NCBI RefSeq assembly: GCF_027460265.1
Contig: NZ_JAPZBC010000001.1
Coordinates: forward strand, 5,870,001 to 5,934,000
Origin: Streptomyces sp. WMMC940
GTDB lineage: Bacteria; Actinomycetota; Actinomycetes; Streptomycetales; Streptomycetaceae
DNA length: 64,000 nucleotides
Reading direction: 5' to 3'
Under the pieces are notes generated by a model that saw only the letters and a list, made by a program, of their open reading frames with translations, ran no database searches and had not been told where the DNA came from. The position numbers and the translations under genes are program-made. Below are positions 3,400 through 46,845 of the stretch, in pieces; position 1 is the stretch's first letter, and each line of letters opens with the position of its first letter.

Positions 3400-5193
3400 C
3401 TAGAAGACCGGAACACCGTCCCGGGTCAGCTTCCAGCCCACCGACGCGAACGCCGCCGGGTCCACGGTGCCCTTCGCCTGCACCCACTGGATGATCGTGT
3501 TGCGGATCTCGTCCGAGTTCGACCACACCTGCCGGGCGCCGGCGACGTGAGGGAACGCGCCGCCGCCGCCGGCCCGGTAGTTGTTCACCGCCAGGACGAA
3601 CTGCGCCGCCGGGTCCAGGGCCTCGCCCTCGAACGACAGGTTCACGATCCGCGACCCCGCCGGCTTCGCGATGTCGATCTCGTACGTCAGACCCGATACG
3701 GCGTCGTAGTTGTAGTCCGGAACGCCGTCGGCGTTCGTCAGCTTCGCCGTGTCCACCGGGGCCCCCGCCGGTGTCCGTACGTAGTACCGCGCCGAGTACT
3801 CCAGATAGTCCTTCAGCTGGGCACCGGTCATCAGCCGTGCCTCCAGCGTGTTCTCGAACGGGTACAGGCCGGCCGCGTCCCTGATCGTCACCCGCCCGGC
3901 CGGGATCGCCGCCGTGCGCGAGAAGCACGACGCCTGCGACAGCACCGGCAGCGCCGCCCACTGCCCGCCCGCCAGCGCCGACTTCACCGTCTCCGTCTGC
4001 ACCTGGTTGATCAGGTCGATGATCGGCTCGTCCTTCCACGGCGCCTCCGCCGAGGCCATCGCCGCCGTCGAGGTCCCGATGACCTGGTTGACGTAAGCGA
4101 CGACCTTCTCGTGCTCGTCCCCCAGCAGCCTCGTGATCCGCGGGTCCTCCGGGACCGTGTTGGAGTTCAGGACCTGTGCCCCCACCTTCACCACCGTCCA
4201 CCTGCCCCGCTCCCACACGAGGTCGAAGTCGAACAGGGTCAGCCGCTGGCCCCACTTCAGCGGCTCGGACAGCACGACCGGCCTGCCCGTCTCCTCGTTG
4301 GTGACCGTGTACTCGGCGATCTCGGTGTGCGCGTGCCCCACCAGGATCGCGTCGATCCCCGGGACCTGCTCGGCGACCAGCGCCGCCGCGTTCTCGACGT
4401 ACGGCAGCTGGTCACCGTACGAGGAGGTGCCGCTGGACCCGGAGTGCGCCGACACGATCACCACGTCGGCACCCATCGAGCGCAGCTTCGGCACCCACTT
4501 CGCCGCCTGCTCCTCCAGGCCGGGGAACACCATCCTCCCGCTGACGTTGGCCTTGTCCCAGATCGCGATGCCCGGGTTCGTCAGCCCCAGCACCGCCACC
4601 CGCACATCACGCCCGTGCGGCGTGCGCAGCCGGTGCATGCTGTACGGCGGGAACGCGGGCCGCAGCGTCCTCGCGTCCAGGGCGTTGGCGCCGAGCAGCG
4701 GGAAGTCGCACTGCTCCTGGAACGCCCGCAGCACCGGGATGCCGTAGTTGAACTCGTGGTTGCCGAGCGCGGCGGCGTCGTAGCCGATGGCGTTCATCGC
4801 CTGCGCCATGGGGTGCACCGGACCGCGACGCGCGGTGATCGGGTCGACCTTGGCGTAGTAGTACGACAGCTGGGTGCCCTGGATCGTGTCACCGGCGTCG
4901 ACGAGGAGCGTGTTGCACCGCCCCTTCTCCCGGCGCACCTGCTCGACCAGGGTGGAGATCTTCGCCAGGCCGACGTCGTTGTGGGCCTTGTCGTCGAACT
5001 CCCGGTCGGTGAAGTAGTCCCAGTTGAAGACGTTCCCGTGCAGGTCGGTCGTGCCCATCACGGTGAACGAGTACCGCTTCTCCCGCCCGTGACGGCCGTG
5101 GGCCGCGGCGGGGACGGCAGCGCCGCCCGCGATGGCGGCCCCGGCGCCTGCGGCGGCCGAACGGCCCAGGAACGTCCTGCGATTGAGCGGCAT
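3400..5193 (-). CDS. Tat-exported bifunctional metallophosphatase / 5'-nucleotidase
   Basis: A 597-residue member of the UshA/5'-nucleotidase family (2',3'-cyclic nucleotide phosphodiesterase / 3'-nucleotidase type). The N-terminus carries a twin-arginine signal, NRRTFLG, followed by an alanine-rich hydrophobic stretch and an AAA-H cleavage region near residue 31, so the enzyme works outside the membrane. The calcineurin-like metallophosphatase motifs are present: TDLHGN at 49-54, GNHEFNYG, and GHAHTE; the C-terminal 5'-nucleotidase domain follows with its substrate-binding region. The start at 5193 is set by the Tat motif and a GGGGAG site nine bases upstream; the frame stays open further upstream but that part lacks coding character. 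It is divergent from the SIMPL gene. It probably releases phosphate and nucleosides from extracellular nucleotides. Confidence 0.92.
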   Translation of the reverse strand: MPLNRRTFLGRSAAAGAGAAIAGGAAVPAAAHGRHGREKRYSFTVMGTTDLHGNVFNWDYFTDREFDDKAHNDVGLAKISTLVEQVRREKGRCNTLLVDAGDTIQGTQLSYYYAKVDPITARRGPVHPMAQAMNAIGYDAAALGNHEFNYGIPVLRAFQEQCDFPLLGANALDARTLRPAFPPYSMHRLRTPHGRDVRVAVLGLTNPGIAIWDKANVSGRMVFPGLEEQAAKWVPKLRSMGADVVIVSAHSGSSGTSSYGDQLPYVENAAALVAEQVPGIDAILVGHAHTEIAEYTVTNEETGRPVVLSEPLKWGQRLTLFDFDLVWERGRWTVVKVGAQVLNSNTVPEDPRITRLLGDEHEKVVAYVNQVIGTSTAAMASAEAPWKDEPIIDLINQVQTETVKSALAGGQWAALPVLSQASCFSRTAAIPAGRVTIRDAAGLYPFENTLEARLMTGAQLKDYLEYSARYYVRTPAGAPVDTAKLTNADGVPDYNYDAVSGLTYEIDIAKPAGSRIVNLSFEGEALDPAAQFVLAVNNYRAGGGGAFPHVAGARQVWSNSDEIRNTIIQWVQAKGTVDPAAFASVGWKLTRDGVPVF

Positions 5194-38530: not shown

Positions 38531-39478
38531 ATGGTTGAGGATCTCGTGGCGATCGGTGTCACGGCGGGTGCCGCGTGCGCCGCCTACCTCATGGCCGCGG
38601 CCAAGGTCGTCAAACAGTACGAGCGGGGCGTGGTCTTCCGCCTGGGCCGGCTGCGCGACCGGGTCCGCGGCCCCGGATTCACCATGATCATTCCGATCGT
38701 GGACCGGCTGCACAAGGTCAACATGCAGATCGTGACCATGCCCGTACCCGCGCAGGAGGGCATCACCAGGGACAACGTCACGGTCAGGGTCGACGCCGTC
38801 GTCTACTTCAAGGTGGTCGACGCGCCCGACGCCCTCGTGAAGGTCGAGGACTACCGTTTCGCCGTCTCCCAGATGGCCCAGACGTCACTGCGCTCGATCA
38901 TCGGCAAGAGCGAACTGGACGACCTCCTCTCCAACCGCGAGAAACTCAACCAGGGCCTCGAACTCATGATCGACAGCCCGGCGCTCGGCTGGGGCGTGAG
39001 CGTCGACCGCGTCGAGATCAAGGACGTGTCGCTGCCGGAGACCATGAAACGCTCCATGGCACGCCAGGCGGAGGCCGACCGGGAGCGCCGGGCACGCGTC
39101 ATCAACGCGGACGCCGAACTCCAGGCCTCGAAGAAACTGGCCGAAGCGGCCCACCAGATGTCCGAGACCCCGGCGGCACTGCAGCTGCGCCTGCTCCAGA
39201 CCGTCATGGCGGTCGCCGCCGAGAAGAACTCCACCCTGGTCCTCCCCATCCCCGTCGAACTGCTGCGCTTCCTGGAACGCGGCTCCGCCCCCGACCGGGA
39301 CGCCGAGCACCACCACGAGGCACACGCGGTGAAGCCGCCGCTGAACGCGCCGGTGACCAACTCGACGGCGTTGCCCGCCATGCCGGACCTCCCGCTACCG
39401 ATCGTCCCGGAGAGCCCCGCCGCCCTCGGCGACCAGGCACACGGCGGCCACGAGTCCCTGGACGACGGAAGGAGGTGA
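38531..39478 (+). CDS. Slipin (stomatin/SPFH, band 7) membrane protein
   Basis: A 315-residue band-7 protein. One N-terminal hydrophobic segment (residues ~7-22) anchors it, then the SPFH core begins with KVVKQYERGVVFRLGRL and contains PGFTMIIPIVDRLHKVNM, ITRDNVTVRVDAVVYFKV and SLRSIIGKSELDDLLSNREKLN, followed by the typical coiled helix MKRSMARQAEADRERRARVINADAE. The ~50-residue tail is Pro/His-rich. Slipins form membrane microdomain scaffolds. The start may be ATG 38531 or GTG 38528, both served by AGGGGG. Stand-alone here; slipins in other bacteria sit with NfeD proteases or with RtcB-type RNA repair genes, neither of which is adjacent. Confidence 0.93.
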   Translation: MVEDLVAIGVTAGAACAAYLMAAAKVVKQYERGVVFRLGRLRDRVRGPGFTMIIPIVDRLHKVNMQIVTMPVPAQEGITRDNVTVRVDAVVYFKVVDAPDALVKVEDYRFAVSQMAQTSLRSIIGKSELDDLLSNREKLNQGLELMIDSPALGWGVSVDRVEIKDVSLPETMKRSMARQAEADRERRARVINADAELQASKKLAEAAHQMSETPAALQLRLLQTVMAVAAEKNSTLVLPIPVELLRFLERGSAPDRDAEHHHEAHAVKPPLNAPVTNSTALPAMPDLPLPIVPESPAALGDQAHGGHESLDDGRR

Positions 39479-44992: not shown

Positions 44993-45652
44993 TCACGGCG
45001 GCGTCGCCCGCCAGGCCGTGAGCATCGTGTCGACCGCAGTGGCGACACGCCGGCGGGCCTCGTGGCGAGGGACACCCCGCATCAGCAGCGCGTCGTACGG
45101 CGTGTCCCGATGACGCACCGAAGCCCGCACGGCCGCCGTGACCGCGCCCTCGTCCAGGGCGCGGCCGGCCGCGGTACGGCCCACCCGCCCGCTGCCCCGC
45201 ACCGAGGTGTGCGCCGCCACGTCCAGCGCGCGGTCCAGCGGGCAGGACGGGAAGAGCCGCAGGATCTCCGCGGTGAGCCGGGCGGTGAACCGGACGTCCT
45301 CCGCTGCCCGCCGGGCCGCGTCCCGCTCCCGCCGCCGGGCCCGTGCCTCCGCATCGGCCAGGCACGCCGCCTCCGCACGTGCCAGTGCCGCCTCCTCCAC
45401 CAGCAGGCCCTGCCGTTCGTACCGGGTGCGCTGTCTGTTGTGCCGTACGACGACGGCCCACAGGGAACTCGCCTCGCGCGCCCGACGGGTCAGCGCCGCG
45501 TCACCTCGCGCCAGGAAGACCAGATGGCCCAGGTCCGCGCAGTCGAGACAGCGCGGCGCGTGGAACTCCAGCACCAGCCGCTCCAGCGGTCCCCGCCGGC
45601 ATTCCGCGCAATGCCGCCGCTTCAGCGGCTCGACGACGACGAGCGGATCCAC
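44993..45652 (-). CDS. DUF2293 domain protein
   Basis: A ~219-residue protein of the DUF2293 family. The N-terminal part has a CxxC pair in RRHCAEC and a second CLDC in APRCLDCADLGH, probably a zinc ribbon; a coiled, Arg/Ala/Glu-rich helix (about 85-125) follows; the C-terminal DUF2293 core reads EILRLFPSCPLDRALDVAAHTSVRGSGRVGR and VRASVRHRDTPYDALLMRG with conserved His and Arg residues. The frame extends to an ATG at 45727, but GTG at 45652, after GAGGG, fits the family start better. Function unknown; the core resembles small nucleic-acid-associated domains. Convergent with the chaplin gene across a 266-bp gap without genes. Confidence 0.78.
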   Translation of the reverse strand: MDPLVVVEPLKRRHCAECRRGPLERLVLEFHAPRCLDCADLGHLVFLARGDAALTRRAREASSLWAVVVRHNRQRTRYERQGLLVEEAALARAEAACLADAEARARRRERDAARRAAEDVRFTARLTAEILRLFPSCPLDRALDVAAHTSVRGSGRVGRTAAGRALDEGAVTAAVRASVRHRDTPYDALLMRGVPRHEARRRVATAVDTMLTAWRATPP

Positions 45653-45758
45653 CGGACCCTCGCCCCCTCCCCGTGGAACGCGCCCTCGCGAACGGGAGAT
45701 GACAGCTGACAGATGACGGCCGCCCAATAATCGTTCGAGAAAAGGACATCGGTCTTGC

Positions 45759-45771: not shown

Positions 45772-46503
45772 GTGGCGAAACTCAATCAGATCATCGCAGT
45801 GGAGAAGGGCGTCAAGTCCAAGGCGCACCAGGACCTGACGACGGCTCATCACGGCCTCCAGAAGCCGGCCCTGCTCGCCGGAATCGCCCGCACCTACCAG
45901 CCCAAGGACGAGGAGGGCGAGCAGCTCCCGCCCGAGTCGACGCTGGTGCAGGTCAAGGCCGAGGACGTGCTGCGCGACACCGCGAGGACACTGACCCGGT
46001 TGTTCGACGTGACCGCCACCAAGGACTGGGCCAACTGCACGGCCCGCGCGGACATCACCGTCGACGGGCGGGTCCTCGTCGCGGACGTACCCGTCGCGTA
46101 CCTCCTCTTCCTGGAGAAGCAGCTCACGGACATCAACACCTTCGTGCGCAAGCTCCCGGTGCTGGACGCGGCGGAGTCCTGGACCCAGGACCCGTCCACC
46201 GACTCCTGGAAGACCGAGCCGGTCAAGACGGTCCGCACGAGGAAGGTGCCCCGAAACCATGTGAAGGCGGAGGCGACCGAGAAGCACCCCGCGCAGGTCG
46301 AGGTGTACTACGAGGACATCCCGGTGGGGTACTGGACCACCGTGAAGTTCTCCGGTGCCCTGCCCGCCCGCCGGGTCAACGAGCTGCTGGACCGGGTGGA
46401 GAAGCTCCAGCAGGCGGTGAAGTTCGCCCGTGAGGAGGCGAACGGCGCGGAGGTCACCGACCAGCGGGTCGGCGACGCCGTGTTCGGCTACCTCTTCGGG
46501 TAG
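45772..46503 (+). CDS. Conserved actinobacterial protein of unknown function (DUF7873-like)
   Basis: A 243-residue soluble protein starting VAKLNQIIAVEKGVKSKAHQ. I recall this conserved text from many actinomycete and actinophage proteins, in current databases probably DUF7873, but no function is known to me. It has no signal or membrane segment. Segments that look conserved are QVKAEDVLRDTARTLTRLFDV, ARADITVDGRVLVADVPVAYLLFLEKQLTDI and VEVYYEDIPVGYWTTVKFSGALPARRVNELLDRV. Even charge distribution and many lysines would suit RNA binding. The GTG start lacks a ribosome binding site and may be leaderless. Just downstream lie a terminator and a tRNA-like non-coding RNA candidate, which makes a protein-RNA pair possible. 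Codon use is slightly less GC-extreme than neighbours. Confidence 0.85.
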   Translation: MAKLNQIIAVEKGVKSKAHQDLTTAHHGLQKPALLAGIARTYQPKDEEGEQLPPESTLVQVKAEDVLRDTARTLTRLFDVTATKDWANCTARADITVDGRVLVADVPVAYLLFLEKQLTDINTFVRKLPVLDAAESWTQDPSTDSWKTEPVKTVRTRKVPRNHVKAEATEKHPAQVEVYYEDIPVGYWTTVKFSGALPARRVNELLDRVEKLQQAVKFAREEANGAEVTDQRVGDAVFGYLFG

Positions 46504-46514
46504 CCCCAAGTACT

Positions 46515-46542
46515 CCCCGGCCACCACGCACCACGGCCGGGG
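46515..46542 (+). terminator. Hairpin after the DUF7873-like gene
   Basis: 8-bp perfect stem CCCCGGCC / GGCCGGGG with a 12-base loop, 12 bases after the stop. A second 9-bp hairpin lies at 46587-46611; one or both could terminate the message, or belong to the leader of the downstream RNA. Confidence 0.5.
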
Positions 46543-46633
46543 CGCGCGAGGAGCGCAAAGCTGAAGCTGAAGCTTGTCGTGAACCGCGCGGCCGGCAGGA
46601 GACCGGCCGCGATGAATCTCAGACTCTCGCTCC

Positions 46634-46770
46634 AGACTCAGCATTCGCCGCTCATCGCCGGATCGACCGGGCCCGGGCCCTGGTGCGTCGAGATGCCGGT
46701 TCAAGTCCGGCCCGCGGAGCTCGGTCCGCGGTGGTCCAAAGGAAGGACGCGGCGCAATGACGACTGACCC
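46634..46770 (+). ncRNA. tRNA-like non-coding RNA, YrlA/Y RNA-like architecture
   Basis: The sequence folds in order as follows. A long helix: TCAG 46638-46641 with CTGA 46764-46767, CATT 46642-46645 with AATG 46756-46759, GCCGC 46647-46651 with GCGGC 46749-46753, separated by small bulges. A side hairpin TCGAC/GTCGA (46663-46667, 46687-46691). A T-arm: GCCGG-TTCAAGT-CCGGC (46695-46711). A perfect 7-bp acceptor-like stem CCGCGGA/TCCGCGG (46712-46718, 46725-46731) closed by a six-base loop. TG linker, then a D-arm GTCC-AAAGGAA-GGAC (46734-46748) with the GG pair in the loop. This is a circularly permuted tRNA cloverleaf whose anticodon arm is replaced by the end helix, the layout described for bacterial YrlA Y RNAs. 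Found by eye; no covariance search was possible. Ends are approximate. Confidence 0.55.
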
Positions 46771-46814
46771 GGGTCCTCAAGCGTGCCGGCGTGTGAATGT
46801 GAGCGGCATCAACA

Positions 46815-46845
46815 GGGCCCGGAGGCCGGCTACGCCTCCGGGCCC
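46815..46845. terminator. Terminator downstream of the tRNA-like RNA
   Basis: Perfect 12-bp stem (46815-46826 and 46834-46845) with a seven-base loop, between the RNA candidate and the stop of the convergent aminotransferase; it can serve both directions. Confidence 0.7.

Follow-up and report, generated by a model that had tools for sequence, protein, structure and literature searches.

A structured RNA built on permuted tRNA mimics is genetically paired with DUF7873 in actinobacteria and phages

The idea of an RNA that mimics transfer RNA (tRNA) is already known from the Y RNAs. Circularly permuted tRNA genes and two-piece transfer-messenger RNA (tmRNA) carry tRNA parts in permuted order, with the acceptor strands joined by a loop. 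Salmonella YrlA has a tRNA-like domain, and the possibility that it competes with a tRNA nuclease has been discussed (PMC7790460). GOLLD and ROOL are cage-forming phage RNAs of unknown function that often lie near tRNA islands (PMC12286853). Here we compare with these systems a locus of Streptomyces sp. WMMC940 (assembly GCF_027460265.1, contig NZ_JAPZBC010000001.1), analyzed as a window of 64,000 nt in whose positions all coordinates are given. Downstream of a gene for a DUF7873 (PF25283) protein, the plus strand at 46515-46845 reads from its sequence as a structured non-coding RNA of about 330 nt, with relatives of roughly up to 450 nt. A permuted tRNA body (T-arm, acceptor stem, D-arm) is set on a long helix that replaces the anticodon stem. 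We consider it virtually certain that this RNA structure and its pairing with DUF7873 exist.

An earlier sequence-only reading of the window had placed a tRNA-mimic RNA at 46634-46770, and each tRNA element it named is present. A T-arm of 5 bp with the loop TTCAAGT (46695-46711) is followed by an acceptor-like 7-bp stem (46712-46731; CCGCGGA at 46712-46718 and TCCGCGG at 46725-46731, joined by the 6-nt loop GCTCGG), a TG linker (46732-46733) and the D-arm GTCC-AAAGGAA-GGAC with GG in its loop (46734-46748). The 3' strand of the helix in the anticodon-stem position (H4) begins at 46750, one base past the end of the D-arm. The elements thus lie where they had been placed, but the boundaries had been drawn too narrowly, as these elements belong to the longer RNA at about 46515-46845. 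Most often, relatives have a pair of tandem tRNA mimics, module A and module B, joined by a linker; the mimic of the window is module B.

That three adjoining tRNA elements would hardly arise by chance, as the same reading had argued, was borne out by a strict descriptor requiring a 5-bp T stem, 7/7 acceptor pairs, a T-initial linker and a D-arm with GG. Applied up to 900 nt downstream of DUF7873, it fitted 132/134 actinobacterial and 86/98 phage or virus loci, these being counts of loci and not of independent events (L110 is the window itself, L101 and L189 nearly duplicate L001 and L136, and L226-L228 repeat L162, L169 and L172). Two or more modules were present in 93 of the 134 and 43 of the 98 loci. 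The controls were near zero: upstream stretches gave 0/133 actinobacterial and 4/97 phage or virus fits, reverse strands 1/134 and 0/98, and dinucleotide shuffles 0/670 and 0/490. Chance is ruled out by these controls as the source of the permuted module.

Covarying stems, proposed earlier as a check, were found in an alignment of module B domains (A4). Of 232 loci, 176 matched the sequence patterns set for core and tail, 55 of these were non-redundant, and 51 were used (L122, L199, L021 and L041 were omitted, and six further rows were dropped before alignment A5). Forty-one of 42 pairs in eight helices had changed on both sides. Pairing was seen in 89.9% of cells, compared with 68.0% in shuffles and at most 41.6% in slid controls, and the covariation score was 0.565, compared with 0.197 shuffled and at most 0.121 slid; the slid controls somewhat favour the structure, since it was derived from the window sequence and, by eye, from relatives. 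Helices 6-8 (T-arm, acceptor stem and D-arm) served to select the sequences, so their covariation is biased. Helices 1-5 had no part in the selection; each of their 26 pairs had changed on both sides, and the share of cells paired ranged from 72.6% to 96.3%. They comprise H1 (46647-46652/46802-46807; 6/6 pairs changed on both sides, 84.1% paired), H2 (46656-46661/46786-46791; 6/6, 96.3%), H3 (46669-46677/46768-46776; 7/7 tested pairs, counted as two helices with 78.4% and 84.8% paired) and H4 (46684-46690/46750-46756; 7/7, 72.6%). Helices of at least four pairs replace the anticodon stem in 85/99 distinct loci for module A and 90/99 for module B, compared with 43% of cross-paired controls. Run unguided, RNAalifold recovered H2, part of H3 and the tRNA-like arms, and did not recover H1 and H4. 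Minimum-free-energy folding weighs against the proposed structure, in that it did not single out the RNA (z 0.58 and -0.99) and predicted a different fold. Such folding was uninformative; the support for the RNA is comparative.

The DUF7873 gene (45772-46503, plus strand) encodes 243 amino acids and matches the Pfam model at 403.9 bits (E-value, E, 3.7e-121), well above the gathering score of 27 bits. Its linkage to the RNA was followed with a covariance model, R1 (140 positions, 37 pairs), trained partly on DUF7873-linked loci and searched against whole genomes. In the window R1 matches 46655-46793 at 129.3 bits (E 2.6e-35), and the single other match reaches 13.9 bits. Among 199 Streptomyces genomes, full-length R1 matches occurred, among the matches listed, in exactly the 93 with DUF7873, so that the recurring linkage sought by the sequence-only reading holds in 93/93 positive genomes. 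The Fisher value for this co-occurrence takes no account of shared ancestry and is not to be taken as a probability. The remaining 106, all DUF7873-negative, had a weaker best match or none. The separation is clean but narrow: the best E per genome was at most 2.1e-14 in positives and at least 8.3e-14 in negatives. At E ≤ 0.001 R1 matched 189/199 genomes, including 96 negatives; among the matches listed, those in negatives covered model positions 19-118 only and scored no more than 62.3 bits. These partial matches may be junctions of neighbouring tRNA genes, as in genome G106, where three matches that lie 78 nt apart would be tandem tRNA genes. In one R1-positive genome (G184) only a fragment of DUF7873 (73-157) was recognised. 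Across the class, R1 matched 24/296 genomes, from six genera, with an E of no more than 1e-14. Each of the 24 also has DUF7873, which was found in 25; in the remaining one, the R1-negative G385, the DUF7873 gene is decayed. At 1e-6, R1 matched 83/85 actinobacterial loci, the two missing being the decayed pair L133/L134 of G385. The genetic pairing of DUF7873 and the RNA is near-obligate in the actinobacterial genomes searched. By eye, remnants of the RNA 3' hairpin seem to lie near the decayed DUF7873 fragments of L133/L134.

DUF7873 has at least 7274 homologues (8000 candidates were scored), and the 80 loci of the closest relatives are all from Streptomyces. Of 14 control genomes, a single one, that of Deinobacterium chartae, had a DUF7873 match, and TROVE was matched in that genome alone. 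The AlphaFold model of the protein has a predicted local distance difference test score of 94.2 and a predicted template-modelling score of 0.69, and Foldseek returned no confident match to a known fold. A Cas7/RAMP relationship was considered and rejected: the few Cascade chains appeared only among non-significant Foldseek rows and were not counted as support. The literature searched contained no paper on DUF7873.

Outside bacteria, tblastn found DUF7873 in 73/50,697 phage records, with Vibrio, Gordonia, Rhizobium, Klebsiella, Serratia, Arthrobacter, Pseudanabaena, Rhodococcus and Microcoleus among the hosts or names and identities reaching down to 30.8% among the matches listed. Nine phages, none of them a Vibrio phage, were read in detail. 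R1 matched downstream of DUF7873 at E 1e-11 or better in six (L135-L139 and L143) and weakly or partially in L141 and L142; L140 had a weak match about 2 kb away. That last locus, from Microcoleus phage My-WqHQDG, carries a HEARO RNA after DUF7873 (3950-4159). By a hand count that includes near-duplicates, R1 matched 58/72 viral or phage loci outside its training at E ≤ 1.2e-11. No R1 match was found in the flanks examined of L158 and L159, and the first (L158 3225-4100) is a virus contig with a DUF7873 gene and no sign of the RNA in that flank; in L198 the matches were weak and away from the downstream side of the gene. We also ran the test in reverse, scanning viral contigs for the RNA core with a DNA pattern. 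Twelve stretches were R1-positive, eight of them on contigs known for DUF7873; the gene was found within 10 of the twelve and on the same contig in one more, and one stretch was cut at a contig edge. The scan's seven R1-negative stretches all lacked DUF7873.

The position of the RNA relative to the gene bears on whether it could be a 3' region through which the DUF7873 mRNA is regulated in cis. As such a region would, the RNA in most cases follows the gene immediately and shares its strand; where the distance was measured, in 35 genomes, 25-350 nt separate the R1 and DUF7873 matches. In L219, however, RNA and gene are on opposite strands, and in L214 the RNA precedes the gene, so that it is not merely a 3' untranslated region. 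To our knowledge, no 3' element comes near this architecture, and we consider a cis-regulatory role highly improbable.

Beyond module B, the RNA of the window likely starts with a hairpin, CCCCGGCC...GGCCGGGG (46515-46542), similar to hairpins seen by eye at this place in relatives. The 5' strand of a proposed core helix, GGAGCG (46550-46555), would pair with 46628-46633, the conserved core CGCTCC (consensus YGCTCY). Between them lie array 1, with three hexamers of the type ARNYTN (AAGCTG AAGCTG AAGCTT, 46558-46575), the capped stem CGCGGCCGG-CAGGAGA-CCGGCCGCG (46587-46611) and array 2, with the hexamers AATCTC AGACTC (46615-46626). Comparison with relatives shows the capped stem to occupy the place of module A. 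By eye, this replacement is found in 27 of 132 actinobacterial loci, a count that includes the window and near-duplicates and was reached from 38 flagged rows by setting aside seven pattern failures, which were not assessed, and four rows that contain module A; the closing helix is mostly kept. Within the module B domain, the conserved internal-loop strand AUCGACC (46662-46668) faces 46777-46783 (UCAAGCG; consensus CUUAAACG) in alignments A4 and A5, and a variable-loop-like linker, AGAT (46691-46694), precedes the T-arm. The RNA closes with a hairpin that has a GGNTAY-type loop (46815-46845), seen in relatives by eye and a candidate terminator without a T run; a terminator scan found no T-tract terminator.

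Hexamer arrays are found in relatives as well, where ARNYTN units spaced 6 nt apart stand ahead of the mimics; before module A, A and T show this period in 48 phage records. A four-unit A-R-n-n-T-n array scoring 11 or 12 of 12 was present in 25/44 distinct phage records, compared with 0.2% of shuffles, and in 29/63 actinobacterial records, compared with no shuffle. We rejected the possibility that the hexamers encode K/R-L repeats: by eye, 7-nt units break the frame in L125, L147, L160, L166, L170, L193 and L218, and CGN triplets are missing from the 20 that most often open a unit. A YGCTC-type core follows array 2, and GAGC was found upstream of module A in 94/95 distinct core-bearing loci (GAGCR in 91), although a motif of this length could arise by chance within 200 nt. 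One position of this pairing shows covariation of the Y/R choice, which is significant in phages (20/26, p 0.0026) but not in actinobacteria (34/68, p 0.11). Compensating changes were also visible by eye in divergent phages, for example GGAC/GTCC in L193 and AGTGTAA/TTACACT in L191. An automatic test requiring at least five pairs found the core helix in 13/40 phage loci, compared with 9.8% of cross-pairs, and in 15/21 actinobacterial loci, compared with 59%; it is weaker than the reading by eye, and the array was mislocated in some divergent loci. The canonical core is missing from 19/141 two-module records.

NCCA stands directly after the acceptor 3' strand in 62/129 phage modules, where about 1 in 64 would be expected by chance, with ACCA commonest in module A and UCCA in module B. 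This would fit modules that are circularly permuted tRNAs whose acceptor loop is cleaved by RNase P and by 3' processing enzymes, leaving a nicked RNA with 3'-CCA ends like two-piece tmRNA. The permuted order and looped acceptor strands are shared with those systems; the RNA here differs in having no anticodon and in a stem that runs into a large RNA domain. In actinobacteria the CCA is mostly missing (28/225 modules, with GCTC in the window), the acceptor sequences vary freely, and many loops measure only 6-9 nt. We judge this explanation unlikely.

Likeness to YrlA had led the sequence-only reading to assign the RNA the architecture of a Y RNA. The layout is indeed YrlA-like, with a permuted module (T-arm, acceptor stem, linker, D-arm) on a helix of flanking strands and no anticodon arm. 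The assignment itself is not supported as made. No Rfam family matched the window at its gathering score; the best permissive-threshold match to the RNA region was YrlA (RF02553), at 24.6 bits against a gathering score of 69. The region is not a linear tRNA gene with an anticodon arm either, as ARAGORN found no tRNA there and the Rfam tRNA model no match at its gathering score. In a whole-genome YrlA search (150 of 972 candidates scored) one other site, at 40.7 bits, was reported and the RNA site was not. TROVE/Ro60, already noted as missing from the window, has no match in the whole genome.

Could the RNA still be a divergent Y RNA working with a Ro60 protein? Sub-threshold YrlA matches to module B recur, beyond the window, in 7/8 phage or virus loci at 28.4-37.1 bits (L136 37.1, L151 36.5, L143 35.9, L135 32.9, L144 29.7, L211 28.8, L200 28.4, L156 none), and TROVE was found in 5/36 DUF7873 phage records, some far from the RNA. 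L200 (3240-5741) and L260 (virus contig G729) hold both systems together, with DUF7873 and its RNA, three YrlA-like RNAs (4602-5106) and then the TROVE/Ro60 gene. Each DUF7873-linked site tested stayed below the Rfam cut-off, however, and a tmRNA/tRNA junction scores similarly (L136 1541-1655, 25.7 bits). The RNA also differs from YrlA in being longer, usually having two modules and carrying hexamer arrays, and its consistent partner is DUF7873, not Ro60. That it is a Y RNA working with Ro60 is improbable.

The phage setting invites comparison with GOLLD and ROOL. tRNA genes lie in the examined flanks of 33/60 phage loci (a hand count in which a few calls overlap the RNA itself). Two pair-carrying phages have tmRNA genes (L136 1072-1600, L196 976-1373), one of them inside a tRNA array. 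GOLLD and ROOL are large structured phage RNAs of unknown function, often near tRNA islands (PMC12286853), and the RNA here, which shares that setting and has conserved internal loops, could be a self-assembling cage or scaffold with DUF7873 as cargo or clamp. No GOLLD or ROOL match was found by Rfam in the window or in the 14 phage or virus loci scanned, and the RNA is much shorter than GOLLD, has tRNA mimics as its building blocks and is consistently accompanied by a protein gene, whereas the accessible text names no protein partner for ROOL (PMC12286853). We consider a cage highly improbable.

We lean, with moderate confidence, towards a dedicated particle of the structured RNA and DUF7873 whose mimics dock on a tRNA-recognising enzyme. 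That a DUF7873-RNA ribonucleoprotein exists is probable. The RNA would be made as a transcript of its own and bound by DUF7873, perhaps on the ARNYTN arrays and the conserved core. Its one or two modules, in which the acceptor stem, the variable loop and the T/D elbow are retained and the anticodon stem continues into the RNA, may dock on an elbow- or acceptor-recognising enzyme such as RNase P, a T-loop modification or CCA enzyme, or an exonuclease. Docking would tether, gate or titrate the bound enzyme. We propose the mimics as docking sites because of the analogy with YrlA, GOLLD and ROOL, and this mechanism, taken by itself, is tentative. In phages the particle might control tRNA supply or protect phage tRNAs; in Streptomyces it might be a retained accessory system. 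A more specific version, in which DUF7873 assembles along the 6-nt repeats, the acceptor loops of two permuted tRNAs are opened by the cell's tRNA-processing enzymes, and the particle thereby captures the machinery of tRNA maturation or steers it, is speculative and on present evidence doubtful.

Among the neighbouring genes, a DUF2293 (PF10056) gene lies just upstream of DUF7873 on the opposite strand (44993-45727, minus). The slipin suggested earlier as weak context corresponds to a band-7 domain protein (38603-39118) about 7.4 kb from DUF7873 and the RNA; the gene is there, but the context is weak, as it is one of nine matches in the genome. Two open reading frames tested as slipin, and one further frame, had no Pfam match. 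Band-7 was found in 9/36 DUF7873 phage records (8 over the cut-off), in one of them within 1 kb.

A literature search, which did not extend to subscription papers and preprints, found no description of a DUF7873-linked RNA, and as far as these searches and the Rfam scans show, the combination of a two-module RNA, hexamer arrays and a DUF7873 partner is undescribed. With it, a large protein family of unknown function would gain a specific structured RNA, phage RNAs of unknown function near tRNA genes would gain a protein-partnered class, and tRNA mimicry would extend outside the Ro60/Y RNA system. Phage members whose hosts are laboratory strains (Arthrobacter, Gordonia) and many Streptomyces species offer direct access for binding and deletion tests. 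If the reading of DUF7873 on 6-nt repeats is true, the pair would represent an undescribed class of ribonucleoprotein common to large phages and bacteria.
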